A program made the translations under genes and the position numbers. This document shows, one piece after another, positions 25,627-36,207 of a stretch of DNA of 36,207 nucleotides. Below the pieces are notes generated by a model. The model did not search any database. It was not told the origin of the DNA and saw only the letters and a list, made by a program, of their open reading frames with translations. How positions within the stretch are numbered: the stretch's first letter is position 1; every line of letters begins with the position of its first letter. Source of the stretch: an uncultured Bacillota bacterium (GTDB lineage Bacteria > Bacillota_I > Bacilli_A > RF39 > UBA660); contig CAMODW010000011.1 in assembly GCA_946611635.1 (NCBI GenBank), forward strand, positions 1 through 36,207. Direction: 5' to 3'.

Positions 25627-27678
25627 ATGAAAAAATATAAATACATAATTAATAATTTAGACTGTGCAAATTGTGCACGTGAAATAGAAGAAGGACTAAA
25701 TAAAGATAAGAGATTATGCAATGTACATGTAAACTTTAGTACATCTAAAATATCTTATGAAACAACTCATAACATTTCTTTAAAAGAATTAAATGAATTA
25801 GTAAAAAAAATAGAACCAGAAAGTTTTATTACTCAGGAAGATATAAATACCGAAACAGACTTTAATATTATTATATTTATAATAGCTATAGTAATATTTA
25901 TTATTAGTATTTTTGTAAAAAATAAAATAATAAACAATATGTTGTTAATAATTACATATATACTATTACTATATAAAATAATAATTAAAGCTAACAAAAT
26001 ACTTATAAATAATCATAGTATAGATGAAAACTTCTTAATATCAATATCTTGTATAGGAGCATTTTTAATCGGTTCAAAAGCTGAAGGTATTATGGTTATT
26101 ACTCTATATACTATTGGCAAATTATTAGAACATTATGCGATAAATAAATCACGTTCTTCTATAAAAAATATAATAGATTTAAAAGTTAAAAACGTTCAAA
26201 TTAAAGAGGGAACTAGTTATAAAGATGTACCAGTAGAAGAAGTAAATATAGGTGATGTTGTATTATTAAAAAAAGGTGATCGAGTTCCAATTGATGGAAT
26301 TATAAAAAAAGATTCTACATTTGATACCTCAAGTATTACAGGGGAAAGCGAATATGTAAAAATAAAAAAAGGAAAAAGTGTTTTCTCGGGATATATTAAT
26401 ATCGGAGATACTATAGAACTTGAAGTAACTAGTTTATATCAAGATTCAATGATTGCCAGAATATTGGATATAATGGAAGATGCTACTGAAAAAAAAGCTA
26501 AAACTGAAAATCTTGTTAGTAAGTGGAGTAAAATATATACCCCAGTTGTAATATCATTATCTCTTATATTATTCTTATTTCTTTCCTTTATAGGAAATTT
26601 AAGTTTTAAAGATTCTTTATATCGTTCTTTGACTTTCCTAGTTATATCATGCCCATGTGCGATTGTTATTTCTATACCATTGTCTTATTTTTCTGGACTT
26701 GGTATAGCTTCCAAAAATGGAATACTTATTAAAGGCAGCAACTATCTTGATCAAATATGTTCATTAAAAAAAATCATTTTCGATAAAACAGGAACACTAA
26801 CTACTGGTACATTTAATGTTGAAAGTATTGAAATAATCGATACTAATTATGATAAAGATAAAATAATAGAATTACTAAGGATGGGCGAATCAAAATCGCC
26901 ACATCCTATAGCAAAATCAATTATGAACTTAAGTAATAAAAAAATAGATGAAACTAAAATAAAAGATTATCACGAAGAAATAGGTCATGGAATAAGTTAT
27001 AGAATTAATAATAAAAAAGTATTTATAGGATCTAAAAAAATGTGTAATTGTGATTATGATACAGATCTTCATCTTAATGTAAATGGTAAACATATTGCTT
27101 CAATAACTATAAATGATGGATTAAAAGATGGTGTTAAAGAAACTATTAATTATTTAAATAATCAAAAAATAAAAACATACATGTTTACTGGTGATAAAAA
27201 TAATGTTGCTAAAGCTATAGCTGAATCTTTAAATATAAGCGATTATCAAAGTGAAATGTTACCAGAAGATAAATATAATTATTATGAAAAAGTATCAAGT
27301 AATATGTTGACTGCTTTTGTAGGTGATGGAATAAATGATGCTCCAACACTTAAAAGAGCCGATATAGGTATTTCTATGGGAAATGTTGGCTCAGAATCAG
27401 CAATAGAAGCATCAGATATAGTTATAATGAATGATGATATTAAAAAGATATCCCTATTATTTGAGATATCAAAATATACTAAAAAAATAATAATTGAAAG
27501 CTTAATCTTTTCTTTATCAATAAAAGTATTAACTCTTATATTAGGAAGTATAGGAATGGTTTCAATGTGGTTAGCTGTCTTAGCTGATACAGGAGTAACT
27601 TTAGTAACAGTGATAAATAGCTTAAGAATTATCAAGAAATATAACAATATTCAAAATAAAAATTCTTGTGTAACCTAG
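25627..27678 (+). CDS. P1B-2 type heavy-metal ATPase (Zn/Cd/Pb efflux)
   Basis: A 683-residue metal-pumping ATPase. One N-terminal HMA domain has CANC (C13/C16). Then come membrane helices, the actuator motif TGES, the metal-site C342-P-C344, D386KTGT (phosphorylated aspartate), a P-domain TGD and G566DGINDAP. The C-terminal membrane pair carries K633 and D654, 21 residues apart. That is the same spacing as the conserved Lys/Asp pair of ZntA-type P1B-2 pumps, supporting Zn/Cd/Pb rather than copper. It should export toxic metal using ATP. AAGGAGG precedes ATG 25627. The tandem structured RNAs and a terminator lie directly upstream and may control it. Confidence 0.93.
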   Translation: MKKYKYIINNLDCANCAREIEEGLNKDKRLCNVHVNFSTSKISYETTHNISLKELNELVKKIEPESFITQEDINTETDFNIIIFIIAIVIFIISIFVKNKIINNMLLIITYILLLYKIIIKANKILINNHSIDENFLISISCIGAFLIGSKAEGIMVITLYTIGKLLEHYAINKSRSSIKNIIDLKVKNVQIKEGTSYKDVPVEEVNIGDVVLLKKGDRVPIDGIIKKDSTFDTSSITGESEYVKIKKGKSVFSGYINIGDTIELEVTSLYQDSMIARILDIMEDATEKKAKTENLVSKWSKIYTPVVISLSLILFLFLSFIGNLSFKDSLYRSLTFLVISCPCAIVISIPLSYFSGLGIASKNGILIKGSNYLDQICSLKKIIFDKTGTLTTGTFNVESIEIIDTNYDKDKIIELLRMGESKSPHPIAKSIMNLSNKKIDETKIKDYHEEIGHGISYRINNKKVFIGSKKMCNCDYDTDLHLNVNGKHIASITINDGLKDGVKETINYLNNQKIKTYMFTGDKNNVAKAIAESLNISDYQSEMLPEDKYNYYEKVSSNMLTAFVGDGINDAPTLKRADIGISMGNVGSESAIEASDIVIMNDDIKKISLLFEISKYTKKIIIESLIFSLSIKVLTLILGSIGMVSMWLAVLADTGVTLVTVINSLRIIKKYNNIQNKNSCVT

Positions 27679-30895: not shown

Positions 30896-31831
30896 ATGAA
30901 AGATTTAAGAGTAATATTTATGGGAACACCTGATTTTGCTGTTCCAGTATTAAAAGCACTAGTTGAGAATACTAACGTTGTATTAGTTGTAACTCAACCT
31001 GATAAAAGAGTAGGTAGAAAACAAGAAATAAAAATTACGCCAATAAAAGAATTGGCTAATTCATATAATATACCTGTATTTCAACCTGAAAATATAAAAA
31101 AGGATTTTGAAAAAATTATTAGTTATAAAGCTGATATTATAATTACTTGTGCATATGGGCAAATAATTCCTGAAGTAATACTTAATAATCCTGAATTAGG
31201 ATGCATAAATGTTCATGCTTCGTTACTTCCTAAATTAAGAGGAGGAGCTCCGATACATCACGCTATAATGGACGGGTATAAAGAAACAGGAATCACTATA
31301 ATGTACATGGATAAGGATATGGATACCGGGGATATTATAAGCCAAAAATCTTGTGAAATAGAAATAAATGATAACGTGGAAACTCTTCATGATAAACTAA
31401 GTGCAATGGGAGCAAATCTATTAATAGAAACTTTAACAAATATATTAATAGGATCTTCTAAAAGAATAAAACAAAATGATTCCGAAGCTACCTATGCTTG
31501 GAACATAAAAAGAGAAGAAGAACACATCAATTTTAATAGAACAGCTCTAGAAGTATATAATCATATAAGAGGATTATATCCATTCCCTACAGCTTATTGT
31601 TTAATTAACGGAGAAGAAACAAAAATATTAGAAGCTTACATAGGTGAAAAAGATTCAGACTTTTCATCATCAACAATCTGCGATATAACCAAAGAATCTA
31701 TTGGAATATCTACTAAAGATAAGATTATCTATATAACTAAGATTAAACCATTTGGTAAAAAAGCTATGTTAGTAAAAGATTATTTAAATGGTATAGATAA
31801 AAATAAACTTCTTCATACTATTGTTGAATGA
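30896..31831 (+). CDS. fmt: Methionyl-tRNA formyltransferase
   Basis: A 311-residue enzyme that transfers formyl from 10-formyl-tetrahydrofolate to Met-tRNA(fMet). The start FMGTPDFAVPVLKALVE, the catalytic NVHASLLPKLRGGAPIHHAI segment (Asn and His), and MDTGDI with the catalytic aspartate are diagnostic. The C-terminal beta-barrel (KILEAYIGEKDSD and after) is present. The ribosome-binding site AGAGG precedes ATG 30896. Overlaps the next gene by 4 nt (ATGA). The supplier of its folate cofactor, fhs, is encoded at 22.2 kb. Confidence 0.97.
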   Translation: MKDLRVIFMGTPDFAVPVLKALVENTNVVLVVTQPDKRVGRKQEIKITPIKELANSYNIPVFQPENIKKDFEKIISYKADIIITCAYGQIIPEVILNNPELGCINVHASLLPKLRGGAPIHHAIMDGYKETGITIMYMDKDMDTGDIISQKSCEIEINDNVETLHDKLSAMGANLLIETLTNILIGSSKRIKQNDSEATYAWNIKREEEHINFNRTALEVYNHIRGLYPFPTAYCLINGEETKILEAYIGEKDSDFSSSTICDITKESIGISTKDKIIYITKIKPFGKKAMLVKDYLNGIDKNKLLHTIVE

Positions 31832-32385
31832 AAAAAATAATTAAAGAATATAAATTTTTATTTATATACAGTATCATAATAATTGTTATCTTACTATTTA
31901 TTCTTTTTGCAGTAGATGATAAATACTTTATAAAAAAGAATAATAATACAATAAATACAAAAGAAAAATCTAAAACAATAGATTATAAAAAACAATTAGA
32001 GCAATTATTAAATGAGAATTATTCATACCATTACGACCTTAATTATAATGGTGAAACATATAAATGCGAAGGAATAAAGAAGAAAGAAGAAGAAAAAGGT
32101 AAATGTATAGAACCGGAATCTATAGAATACAATAACGATAATTATCAAGAAGTTTTTAAAAATATAAATACAAAATATTTAGATGTAAATTACATATACA
32201 ATATAATAAAAGAACTTGACCCCGAGATGACAAATCTTAATGTTAAACGATATTACACTTATGATGTAAATATATTGAATATGAAAGGAAACATAATAGT
32301 ATATTCTGATTTGTCAAGAATCACTCAAATTACAATAGCTAACGGGTATTTAACTTATGTATTATATTTTGATAATATAAAATAA
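31828..32385 (+). CDS. Small membrane-anchored protein, unknown function
   Basis: A 185-residue protein with an N-terminal membrane segment (residues ~10-29, FLFIYSIIIIVILLFILFAV) preceded by positive residues, and a ~150-residue domain outside, probably strand-rich. Two cysteines (in TYKCEG and GKCIEP) could form a disulfide. Overlaps the fmt stop by ATGA, so it is translationally coupled and in the same operon. Unrecognised; no enzyme motif. Confidence 0.7.
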   Translation: MKKIIKEYKFLFIYSIIIIVILLFILFAVDDKYFIKKNNNTINTKEKSKTIDYKKQLEQLLNENYSYHYDLNYNGETYKCEGIKKKEEEKGKCIEPESIEYNNDNYQEVFKNINTKYLDVNYIYNIIKELDPEMTNLNVKRYYTYDVNILNMKGNIIVYSDLSRITQITIANGYLTYVLYFDNIK

Positions 32386-32474
32386 ATTTACAAAACTTAA
32401 ATTAACGTATTTACTATTATATTATTCTGCGATATTATCAAAAGGGATATAAATTATTGAGGATAGTGAGCAAG

Positions 32475-32960
32475 ATGGTTAAGAGTATTAAAAACAATTT
32501 TATATTTGAAGGTATTAAATTAAAAAAAAGGCAACAAAAAATTGTCACTCTTTTAAGTAGTTGCAAAGAAGTTCGAGATACTGCCTATCCTTTAGAAAAC
32601 TCTAACGTTACGGAGTTGGTAATTAAAGAATTGTATGCTAGCAAACAAAAGGGATATACCTATTTATCTGGTATATTACAATTAGAAGATGGCGAAAAAG
32701 AAGAAAACAGAAACTTTGTTGCTTATCTTACAGAAAAGAATAATGAGTATCATATCTTATTAGACATTACTCGTAATATAAATGGTGAAAACAAAATGAT
32801 AAGGACTACAGATATTATCCAAGAAGAAGAGGAAAATATTATTTCTCATACTTCATACTGTAGTATTGGTTTTTTACAAGAAAAGGTATTCTCAGAAGAA
32901 TTCCCTAAGGGTTATTTAGATAGTACACCAGTAAAAACAGAACAATTAAGTGCTTTATAA
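32475..32960 (+). CDS. Hypothetical soluble protein
   Basis: A ~161-residue protein I do not recognise. Basic N-terminal ~25 residues (IKNNFIFEGIKLKKRQQKIV) then a mixed, acidic body with no membrane segment or catalytic motif. The start is uncertain: TGAGGA (32458-32463) is 3 nt from GTG 32466 and 12 nt from ATG 32475, and an upstream TTG at 32457 is in frame. A TATTAT at 32433 could be its -10. It is followed by a terminator and lies before a membrane protein. Confidence 0.6.
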   Translation: MVKSIKNNFIFEGIKLKKRQQKIVTLLSSCKEVRDTAYPLENSNVTELVIKELYASKQKGYTYLSGILQLEDGEKEENRNFVAYLTEKNNEYHILLDITRNINGENKMIRTTDIIQEEEENIISHTSYCSIGFLQEKVFSEEFPKGYLDSTPVKTEQLSAL

Positions 32961-32970
32961 GCACCTTTTT
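32950..32970 (+). terminator. Small intrinsic terminator
   Basis: GTGCTT (32950-32955), loop TAT, AAGCAC (32959-32964), then C and five T. The hairpin overlaps the stop codon of the preceding gene. Confidence 0.75.
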
Positions 32971-32985
32971 AATTTGGAGGTAAAA

Positions 32986-34098
32986 ATGAAAAACTATTTC
33001 TTACTCTTTATAACAATCATCGTGTTTGTTTTAACAATTATTTCCAAAGAAATAAATCTTTTTTTGTCTTTTATTCTCCTATTCTTTCCGATACTAATTA
33101 ACTATTACTTCTCTAAAAAAGAGGGGATAGAAATAAGAATAAATTCCAAAATAATTCTTTTATTCTATTTATTTACTTGTGTCTTATATTATCTAATAAG
33201 TAAAGATCATCTATCTTGTATTATTTTATACTTATTACAAATTAGTTATCTTTTTTATAATCCACGATTAAAAATAGAAGAAGACATATTATATACAAAA
33301 GAAATATTTATAAAGAAAAATATTGTAATACCAGAAAATCTAAAAAAAGACTTTCTAAAAGCTGGAATAACTATAAAAAACAATACTCAATCCAATAAAA
33401 ATATAAATACTATAAAAAGTATTAAAGAGTTAGAATCTTTATATCAGCAAATAAAAATAAATCGCAATCGATATGAAAACTTAATAAGAAGTAAAAAATA
33501 TAAAATTGTATCTTCATTTATAATACCGTTTATAATCGTCTTTATTTATATATTCAATCTTCCTAATCCTATAACAACCCCAGTGGTATTATTCACTTAT
33601 TTTTTATATACTATTACAAATGTTTTTCTATCAATATTTCTTCCTAGTGAAAAAGACATTATGAAGAGAAAGCCAAGAATAAAAGGAGAAAACTTATATT
33701 CTAAAGAAGAAAAACTATTTATAATAGTAAACATAATTTGTAATATCATAGCTATTACTATTCCTTATCTGTCTATAATTTATAATACAAACAATCCTAT
33801 TATTGCTTCTTATACATTAATGATTACTATAATTATAGCTAATATTATTAATATCGCTTACCATATAGATGACAGTTTAACTATTATTAATCTGTTTACC
33901 AGTTTTAATAGTATTATTTACATTACAATAATTATTACCAGTATAGCTATCTTTATTAATATAAATAAGATTTATTATATATATAGTATATATCCAATAG
34001 GAAACTATTTAAAAATAATTATTATTTCTTTGTTTGCTATCGCTTGGGAAGATATAATAAAAATAGCCAGATACTTACATAGTAAGAAAGGAGAATAA
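32986..34098 (+). CDS. P-type ATPase-derived membrane protein without catalytic domains
   Basis: A 370-residue protein with about ten membrane helices. Residues 221-231, SEKDIMKRKPR, and preceding NLPNPITTPVVLFTYFLY match the TM5-TM6 loop of Ca2+-type P-type ATPases (P-x-x-DIMxxPPR motif, from family knowledge). RNRYENLIRSKKYKIVSS fits the end of the P domain leading to TM5, and AWEDIIKIARY fits the last helix. DKTGT, TGES and GDGxNDxP are all absent: a ~80-residue cytoplasmic part replaces the P and N domains. Against SERCA the ion ligands N796 and D800 align to Y205 and T209. Start ATG 32986 follows TTGGAGG. Role unknown. Confidence 0.65.
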   Translation: MKNYFLLFITIIVFVLTIISKEINLFLSFILLFFPILINYYFSKKEGIEIRINSKIILLFYLFTCVLYYLISKDHLSCIILYLLQISYLFYNPRLKIEEDILYTKEIFIKKNIVIPENLKKDFLKAGITIKNNTQSNKNINTIKSIKELESLYQQIKINRNRYENLIRSKKYKIVSSFIIPFIIVFIYIFNLPNPITTPVVLFTYFLYTITNVFLSIFLPSEKDIMKRKPRIKGENLYSKEEKLFIIVNIICNIIAITIPYLSIIYNTNNPIIASYTLMITIIIANIINIAYHIDDSLTIINLFTSFNSIIYITIIITSIAIFININKIYYIYSIYPIGNYLKIIIISLFAIAWEDIIKIARYLHSKKGE

Positions 34099-34100
34099 TT

Positions 34101-34988
34101 ATGATAACTTTAACAAAGAATATAGAAGAAGCAAAATTTATTACTCACTCAGGAATATTTCATCCAGACGATGTCTTTTCAACTGCTTTCCTTGATAAAA
34201 TGTTCCCAAATAATAAAGTTATAAGAGTTAATAAAGTAGAAAAAGTAAAAAAAGATCAAATAGTATATGATATAGGATTTGGTAAATTTGACCATCATGG
34301 TAAAGATGCTAGGTGGCGAAATGAAAAACTAAAATATTCGTCTTTTGGCTTATTATGGAAAACCTATGGCCATCAATATTTAGAAAAAATAACTCCACAT
34401 TACCAAGATGTTTGGAAGAAAATAGATGAAAAACTAGTTTGTCAAATAGATGGAATAGATAATGGTAATTTCCCCAAAATTATTGCTGATTATGAATTGC
34501 TTGATTTAGATAAAGTTATAGATTTATATAATAAGAACTGGGATAGTAAAGATGATAATGATGAACAATTTTTAAAAGCCGTATTTGTAGCTTCTGAGTT
34601 GTTAGATAACCTTATCAAAAGAGAAATATCCTATAGTATAGCTTTTAAAAAAGTAATAGAAATAATAAATAATACAGAAGGTGATATCTTATACTTAGAT
34701 GAATATATGCCTTATGAAGAAGCAATTTTTTATAATAACAATAACAATCGCTTTAAAGCGATAATCTATCCTGCTAATAGAGGCGGTTTTAATATAAAAC
34801 CAATTACTATATCTAAAGATTCTTATGAATTAAAATATCACTTTCCTGAAGAGTGGTGTGGCTTAGAAGAAAAAGAATTAATAAACAAAAGTAAAATAAG
34901 AACACTTAGATTTATTCATTCTAATGGTTTTATAGCTTCAACAGGTACAAAAGAAGATGCTTATTTATTATGTAAAAATCTTAATTAA
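34101..34988 (+). CDS. MYG1-family protein (predicted metal-dependent hydrolase/exonuclease)
   Basis: A 295-residue protein of the MYG1 (UPF0160) family, related to DHH phosphoesterases. The N-terminal THSGIFHPDDVFSTAFLDK and VYDIGFGKFDHHGKDARW segments carry the aspartate and DHH-like metal ligands of the family. The C-terminal half includes FPEEWCGLEEKEL and FIHSNGFIASTGTKEDAYLL, matching conserved MYG1 stretches. Eukaryotic MYG1 is an RNA exonuclease; the bacterial role is less clear. Start ATG 34101 is preceded by AAGGAG and lies 2 nt after the upstream gene, so it is probably translated from the same transcript. Confidence 0.9.
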   Translation: MITLTKNIEEAKFITHSGIFHPDDVFSTAFLDKMFPNNKVIRVNKVEKVKKDQIVYDIGFGKFDHHGKDARWRNEKLKYSSFGLLWKTYGHQYLEKITPHYQDVWKKIDEKLVCQIDGIDNGNFPKIIADYELLDLDKVIDLYNKNWDSKDDNDEQFLKAVFVASELLDNLIKREISYSIAFKKVIEIINNTEGDILYLDEYMPYEEAIFYNNNNNRFKAIIYPANRGGFNIKPITISKDSYELKYHFPEEWCGLEEKELINKSKIRTLRFIHSNGFIASTGTKEDAYLLCKNLN

Positions 34989-35046: not shown

Positions 35047-35071
35047 TAAACATAATAAGGAGTTGTTTATT

Positions 35072-36207
35072 ATGGATTACGAAGAAAAAGCTATTAAACT
35101 ACTAAATGGCGATAAACAAGTGCTCAAAGAAATAATTAGTACAATAAAAGAAGAAGATTTTGATACAATAAAAAAACTATATTTTTATATAAAAAATCAT
35201 CATTCTAAATCAGATGTTAATAAATTTATAAACGTTATAATAAATAATATTGATATTGTATACGATGATGAAATGAATCTAAATAGCAACATATCCTTCT
35301 TAAAAGAAGTACAACCTTTAATAATTAAGTTCTTATTAATTAATAACTATGAATTTAGTGATAAGCAATTAAAAAAAATGAAAAACGAGTTATTAATAGA
35401 AATGCCTATTAATGCATCTATAGAAGAAATCTGTCAAAGACTTCAAAGAAAAGAGTTTTCTCCTTCATTATTAAATGTAACAAAGTTAAAAAAAGTTATC
35501 AATTTTGCATCCGTTAATAATTTAGATAAAGTAATAGAAATACTAGTAGATGATTATGATTTTATAATTCAATATAATAATAGTAATATCAATACTTCTT
35601 TACTTCTAAAGCACTCACAAAAACTAAGCTTTCGTGAAAAAATATTACTATCAAAAAGATTTAACAAAGAATTAAAGAGTAAACCTGAAGAAATAACTAA
35701 GTATTTAACTAAAGAAGAAGTAAAATATTTAAAATCAGATATCTATGTTAAAAATATGTTCTTGTCTAAAGGATTAAGATATGATGTTTTAGAATCTAGT
35801 ACTATTACTAATCTAATAGACAATATTAATATTTTTAAATCCTACCCATTTAGAACTATTAACGAGTTCTATGAATCTATTTCTAATAATAAAAAACTAA
35901 GTGATAATAAAGTATTAAAAGATATTTATCTTAACAAAATAGATGATATTTATGATAATATTCGCTTGTTTAAATCTTTAAACAAAGAAAGCATTAATGA
36001 AATTATTGCAGAGTATCCAAGAGAATTAATATATTTAAATCTATTTATTAACGTTAACGAAGAAGAAAAAAAGTGGCTATTAGAATTACCAATTATTAAA
36101 GAAACTCTATATAATACTAAAAAAACAAAAGTATATAATTATCTAAATCATAATGAATTATATAATATATTAAAAACTAAAGATAATATTTTTAAATATA
36201 AAGAGTA
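35072..36207 (+). CDS. Hypothetical helical protein, 3' end outside window
   Basis: From ATG 35072 (AAGGAG, 8 nt spacing) the frame MDYEEKAIKLLNGDKQVLKE stays open to the window end, at least 378 codons. The product is rich in Lys, Asn, Ile and Leu, all predicted helical, and has no signal peptide or membrane helix in the visible part. Helix pairs resembling degenerate repeats recur (LLNGDKQVLKEII, LDKVIEILVDDYD and LFKSLNKESINEII), which suggests an alpha-solenoid. No recognisable motif; function unknown. Confidence 0.8.
   Translation, partial: MDYEEKAIKLLNGDKQVLKEIISTIKEEDFDTIKKLYFYIKNHHSKSDVNKFINVIINNIDIVYDDEMNLNSNISFLKEVQPLIIKFLLINNYEFSDKQLKKMKNELLIEMPINASIEEICQRLQRKEFSPSLLNVTKLKKVINFASVNNLDKVIEILVDDYDFIIQYNNSNINTSLLLKHSQKLSFREKILLSKRFNKELKSKPEEITKYLTKEEVKYLKSDIYVKNMFLSKGLRYDVLESSTITNLIDNINIFKSYPFRTINEFYESISNNKKLSDNKVLKDIYLNKIDDIYDNIRLFKSLNKESINEIIAEYPRELIYLNLFINVNEEEKKWLLELPIIKETLYNTKKTKVYNYLNHNELYNILKTKDNIFKYKE

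Follow-up and report, generated by a model that had tools for sequence, protein, structure and literature searches.

The gene at positions 32986-34098 on the forward strand of the window, by which we mean the whole stretch of 36,207 nucleotides that was analysed, encodes a stand-alone, non-catalytic homologue of the P-type ATPases, here named SA, which is stable over a genus. The product has 370 amino acids, the stop codon ends at 34098, and the protein is one of a family of 13 members. The ATG at 32986 is preferred as start codon over an alternative GTG at 32950, and is preceded by a Shine-Dalgarno sequence, GGAGG, at 32976-32980 (+), as expected from the original prediction of an intact frame with a strong ribosome-binding site. 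A terminator-like hairpin followed by a T-run, by consensus match only, lies at 32950-32964 (+), between SA and the preceding gene for a 167-residue protein.

The Pfam family Cation_ATPase_C (PF00689) matches residues 201-360 of SA with 35.9 bits (cut-off 27.3, E-value 8.2e-9), and no NCBIfam model scored above its cut-offs for this protein. In the genome search the PF00689 cut-off was passed by 12 of the 13 members, with only that of genome G012 falling below it; the G003 protein reached 33.3 bits there and went unreported by hmmscan of the protein alone. The profile of the SA orthologues matches Na,K-ATPase, LMCA1 and SERCA, with a best E-value of 1.8e-10. The AlphaFold model of the window protein (pLDDT 76.5, pTM 0.72) aligns with SPCA1 over 315 residues at 3.4 Å (VIA-align, Z 20.1), and its best Foldseek match is LMCA1 (E-value 1.5e-5). 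The G003 orthologue, of 402 residues, models better (pLDDT 84.9, pTM 0.81); its best match is SPCA1 7yai_A (Z 30.2, 394 residues aligned, 3.1 Å), and on SPCA1 8iwp 399 of the 402 residues superpose at 2.9 Å (Z 29.6), spanning SPCA1 residues 102-908. The P-type fold, comprising the membrane domain and a P-domain core, was thus obtained in predicted models, not solved structures, and neither model points to an unrelated architecture. Because the models superpose on SPCA1 with short joints in place of the missing parts, it is well supported, at the level of prediction, that the SA members hold M2-M10 plus a trimmed P-domain core, and that the actuator (A) and nucleotide (N) domains are gone. The proposal that SA is a stand-alone P-type ATPase membrane domain is borne out by the superposition of the models on SPCA1 and SERCA over nearly their whole length.

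In the model of the window protein, four N-terminal helices are followed by a small strand-helix-strand unit, a 44-residue M5, and M6-M10. Helix 1 (residues 2-19, 32989-33042) is an addition confined to the window clade and has a mean pLDDT of about 50-60. Helix 2 (residues 23-43, 33052-33114) is M2-like and is followed after five residues by the M3-like helix 3 (residues 49-72, 33130-33201), which is also supported by a profile match to M3 of full pumps, and then by helix 4 (residues 75-91, 33208-33258), which is M4-like without PExLP. At the A-domain site only 5-7 residues separate the pump-flanking helices in the two models; in the G003 model this is the joint between helices 1 and 2, seven residues long, where pumps hold the actuator domain. 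The shrunken P-domain core (residues 92-145, 33259-33420) comprises a strand at residues 106-109, a helix at 117-125 and a strand at 129-132; it is fuller in the G003 model, the spacing between M4 and M5 being 86 residues there and 54 in the window clade, and the alignment indicates that it is also shortened in G008 and G012. Then come the long M5 with its cytoplasmic stalk (residues 146-189, 33421-33552), M6 (residues 198-218, 33577-33639), the L6-7 loop with DIMKRKPR (residues 224-231, 33655-33678), M7 (residues 240-268, 33703-33789), M8 (residues 271-294, 33796-33867), the M9 region (residues 299-331, 33880-33978), and M10 with the C-terminal helix (residues 339-366, 34000-34083). The earlier description of SA as the C-terminal half of a pump is too narrow, since the first ~145 residues are not foreign but consist of further membrane helices and the reduced P core.

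A pattern scan for DKTGT, TGES, TGD, GDGxND and PExLP found none of them in any of the 13 orthologues, in line with the predicted loss of the phosphorylation, nucleotide and dephosphorylation motifs. The ion site has likewise changed. In an alignment with nine full pumps, no ligand residue is present in any of the 13 members at the positions of N768, E771, N796 and D800 (here and below in SERCA numbering), so the ion ligands are lost, as had been proposed. When anchored on DIMKRKPR, the positions of N796, T799 and D800 in M6 of the window protein are occupied by Tyr, Tyr and Thr, which reproduces the first reading of Tyr for N796 and Thr for D800. Across the family the N796 position holds Lys in nine members, Tyr in three and Ile in one; the Tyr replaces the M6 Lys in the window clade, and G008 has a Lys three residues beyond this position. 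The register of M5 is uncertain in the three window-clade members, where MAFFT places Ser at N768 and the profile alignment Tyr or Ser, and the alignment rows of G014, G013 and G012 begin up to a few residues past the likely start, which leaves the counted columns unaffected. The E908 position in M8 is Asn in all 13 members, and this residue was probably inherited, since three of the four 822-837-residue pumps checked have Asn there too. The membrane helices are otherwise nearly without charged residues and have very few polar ones, and the C-terminal tail is basic.

Eleven positions are invariant in the 13 members, which by the model fall in the M5 stalk (R160, N165), the L6-7 loop (D224, I225, R228, P230), M8 (N286, at the E908 position), the M8-M9 loop (N302, within the M9 region), and M10 with its cytoplasmic end (N340, K359, R362). 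Eight of them thus belong to the M5 stalk, the L6-7 loop and the C-terminal tail (K359 and R362). In pumps, the M5 stalk and the L6-7 loop form the hub that couples the membrane domain to the P domain.

Of the 15 genomes from the genus, 13 were found by an orthologue profile search to carry SA, in frame in every case, with open frames of 348 to 429 amino acids. Two genomes lack SA. In G010, which is 65% complete, MYG1 was not matched either, so the SA locus itself may simply be missing from this assembly. In the other, G009, the order dnaB-dnaI-fmt-180 aa-164 aa-MYG1 is intact, with a clean empty site of 116 bases between the 164-residue gene and MYG1 (L151:1503-1620), and SA is therefore dispensable in at least one species. 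The short gene occupies one syntenic place in these 13 genomes, and no relative points to a recent truncation, the case that had been named as evidence against a repurposed protein. Profile searches also covered the class (395 genomes) and the family (386 genomes). Outside the genus, the only confirmed SA-like form is a 192-201-residue M5-M10 protein in a second genus (g45), represented by L119:9769-10374 (G061, 201 aa) and L178:8217-8795 (G529, 192 aa), which are 83% identical to each other; the upstream gene differs between the two, and no N-terminal half is found nearby. Apart from these forms and five excepted loci, the other profile matches listed for class and family have open frames of at least 737 amino acids. 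The excepted loci, left uncounted, are G301:C31 (409 aa, 531 bases from the contig end), G564:C114 (539 aa), and three with N-terminal matches only (G315:C63, G322:C46 and G167:C6). A contig scan gave 16 loci at 23-33% identity.

SA was placed among the pumps by a tree of 32 C-terminal sequences (M5-M10), in which the SA and g45 sets have long branches. The 13 SA members form one group (94/87), which joins the g45 short form of 201 and 192 residues (99/94), and both together join six full pumps of 822-844 residues (99/97). A single origin of SA and the g45 short form is favoured by this tree, though the rival topology, in which the g45 form groups with the full pumps, has an AU p of 0.052. Ten Ca2+-type pumps, six of them from the SA genus, stand apart (98/88). 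Derivation from the Ca2+ pump of the genus itself was rejected (AU test, p 8.2e-6 for grouping with these pumps), as was a grouping of SA with all ten Ca2+-type pumps (p 0.0027). Where a Ca2+-type pump had been suggested, the tree groups SA with the 822-844-residue pumps and not with the Ca2+ pump of its genus. In the four of these closest pumps that were checked, TGES, DKTGT, TGD, GDGxND and the acidic E and D of M6 are kept, and PEELP was seen in M4 of G019 and G690.

In the window, fmt (methionyl-tRNA formyltransferase, 30896-31831), assigned by family match and synteny and used as syntenic anchor, is followed on the same forward strand by the gene for a 185-residue protein of no confident family, predicted to have a single membrane stretch at its N terminus (31828-32385), which is conserved at the locus, by that for the 167-residue protein, also of no confident family (32457-32960), whose family is found at 9 of the 13 loci, and, after SA, by a MYG1-type (UPF0160, DHH) nuclease gene (34101-34988), which keeps the DHH motif. 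Upstream of SA, fmt and the 185-residue protein are found in 11 of the 13 genomes, and downstream MYG1 adjoins it in all 13, the frames overlapping or being separated by at most 2 nt (taking the longest MYG1 frame). MYG1 is rare among the relatives searched, being found in 15 of 59, 14 of these in the SA genus, where the MYG1 model detects it in 14 of the 15 genomes. In nine of the 13 genomes (L066-L074), which are related and not independent, TATAAT stands 21-25 bases before the SA start codon, against a background of about 2.2 occurrences per kb on the same strand of the SA locus stretches; it is absent before SA in the three genomes of the window clade and in G012. Because of this position, SA and MYG1 look like a unit with its own putative promoter in those nine genomes, by consensus match only. 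If TATAAT is a promoter element, it would leave a very short leader. A large protein of about 1060-1220 residues in other genomes is encoded downstream of MYG1 at 10 of the 13 loci (in the window at 35063-36205, cut by the contig end; L074:9885-13322), and its G003 copy has no Pfam or PADLOC match. A role in anti-phage defence was considered and set aside, PADLOC giving no match for six proteins of the locus. A full P-type ATPase with a heavy-metal-associated domain is encoded at 25627-27678, 5 kb upstream of SA.

The role that we consider most likely for SA is that of a membrane scaffold or receptor, in which a 'pseudopump' fold would serve a soluble partner, perhaps MYG1, and we hold this reading tentatively, at somewhat less than even confidence. 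Sequence and models show that a full pump of the 822-844-residue type lost the actuator domain, the nucleotide domain and all catalytic residues. What it retained is M2-M10 with the long stalk of M5, the loop L6-7 and a reduced core of the P domain, and the old ion site was filled by hydrophobic residues and, in most members, by the M6 Lys. In the proposed role, the resulting protein would be unable to burn ATP or to bind cations in the manner of a pump, and would instead act as a static scaffold or receptor whose cytoplasmic face, formed by the M5 stalk, the DIMxRxP loop and the KxxR tail, may hold the partner. MYG1 would be the likeliest one because its gene comes next and overlaps or abuts that of SA. 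Against this link it can be said that gene order, which is all that suggests it, can also be inherited. Further against it, MYG1 occurs without SA in G009 and G027, and the two g45 genomes that carry the short form gave no MYG1 match; 14 control genomes of that search were silent too, although the same model detects MYG1 in the SA genus. The P-domain core shrank again in three lineages and so is not a strongly kept docking site, and the invariant residues, which are also common in active pumps, may serve only the upkeep of the fold.

If SA were instead a pump remnant decaying slowly without function, one would understand that it is the fastest evolving of the seven genes compared (47-49% identity among the compared genomes, against 63-92% for the neighbours, whose six dN values are 0.05-0.27), that its P core was repeatedly shortened, and that it was lost cleanly in G009. 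Yet dN is 0.39-0.44 against a dS of 1.6-2.0 in the three pairs formed by the three closest genomes, giving a dN/dS of about 0.2-0.27 with dS near saturation, and in a neutral simulation redrawing 20% of the positions was enough to break the frame in all 2000 copies, a divergence at which 13 SA copies are still in frame. Adding the 11 invariant residues and the placement of TATAAT in nine genomes, we regard decay as very improbable, and SA as being under constraint, though loosely, as judged from these substitution rates. The call of a functional gene and not a pseudogene is thereby upheld, including the dN well below dS that was to be looked for among relatives. Still harder to credit is an assembly or binning artefact, such as a truncated or chimeric contig: the genomes are incomplete and fragmented (that of the window is 73% complete in 67 contigs), but the same short gene stands at the same place inside long contigs of 13 independent assemblies.

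Two further readings grant SA a function of another kind. It might regulate an active P-type ATPase, or help to assemble it, by pairing with the complete pump within the membrane, as small subunits do elsewhere, which would suit the retained membrane surfaces and stalk/L6-7 hub, the several full pumps of the window genome, and the full Ca2+-type pump found ~6-11 kb downstream of SA in 5 of the 13 genomes; we find it unlikely, because in the window genome the Ca2+ pump and SA are on different contigs, and because SA and pumps can be found apart. G008, which is 85% complete, has SA and no match to PF00122 (the A domain) or to the Ca2+ pump of the window genome; with no P-type ATPase detected there, SA has no obvious need of a partner pump. 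Conversely, G009 has a full Ca2+ pump, 72% identical to that of the window genome, and no SA. Within the limits of incomplete genomes, both speak against an obligate pump partner. The nearly complete membrane domain could alternatively form an energy-independent transporter, a leak channel or a lipid-handling protein, and the site without acidic residues, the M6 Lys of nine members, the invariant M8 Asn and the basic tail would then suggest that what passes is an anion or an anionic lipid, not a cation, in keeping with TMEM94, where a positive cytoplasmic band holds a PA-like lipid (PMC12134183). This possibility, which we rate as rather doubtful, has to contend with membrane helices very poor in other polar residues, with the change of the M6 Lys to Tyr in the window clade, and with neighbours that suggest no substrate, save a CDP-alcohol phosphatidyltransferase at 7 of the 13 loci, not including the window.

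Going beyond the scaffold or receptor role, we put forward as a speculation, and a quite unlikely one, that SA and its relatives are a new pump-derived class whose ATP motor was lost in the ancestor of at least two genera, a receptor that either brings a MYG1-type RNA nuclease to the membrane or responds to an anionic lipid, with a built-in Lys replacing the transported ion. The membrane and cytoplasmic domains of P-type ATPases are usually taken as interdependent. The long-lived SA family shows that the membrane part of a pump, its ion site refilled, can fold and be of use by itself, and it offers a natural test object for the contacts, those of the M5 stalk and the L6-7 loop, that matter without ATP. 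There is also a risk for annotation, as the 12 members that pass the Cation_ATPase_C cut-off could be misnamed transporting ATPases.

Among known systems, the sister group of SA is formed by the 822-844-residue pumps of the same bacterial family. Of the four that were checked, three have the M8 Asn in common with SA, and all differ from it in keeping the catalytic motifs and the acidic M6. The P2A Ca2+ pumps SPCA1, SERCA and LMCA1 have the same M2-M10 and P-core fold (Z 17-30) and the DIMxRxP loop, whereas SA is without their A domain, N domain, catalytic motifs and Ca2+ ligands. A search of open-licence papers, with narrow phrases for P-type ATPases that are truncated, inactive, pseudoenzymes or reduced to the membrane domain, found no bacterial family without A and N domains. 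According to PMC10654040, CtpE and the P6 ATPases have PEGL in M4 and a replaced M6 Asp; set against this description, SA has a replaced M6 Asp but no PExLP. The same paper places a built-in Lys acting as counter-ion in TM5 of several active P-type families, whereas the Lys of SA is in M6. A truncated SERCA1 (S1T) cannot pump and lowers ER calcium, going by the title of a 2001 paper cited in PMC7760721. Like SA, S1T is a shortened pump, but it arises by splicing from a gene whose other product is the complete pump, and what it retains is the N-terminal part, the opposite of SA. MJ0968, a soluble catalytic P-domain protein, is a P-type ATPase part encoded as a separate gene and in this sense the complement of SA. 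The nearest published case is human TMEM94, also called ERMA, which, like SA, has a P-type fold possibly no longer used for pumping. It has the fold without TGES, no ATPase activity was detected, and a PA-like lipid was found in its membrane domain (PMC12134183), but this pseudopump view is contested, as ERMA is called an active Mg2+ ATPase in PMC13322241. TMEM94 chains match the model of the window protein in fold only (9jk5, Z 17.4), and TMEM94 keeps A-, P- and N-like domains, whereas SA is without A and N. The SA family offers a bacterial counterpart to the TMEM94 debate.
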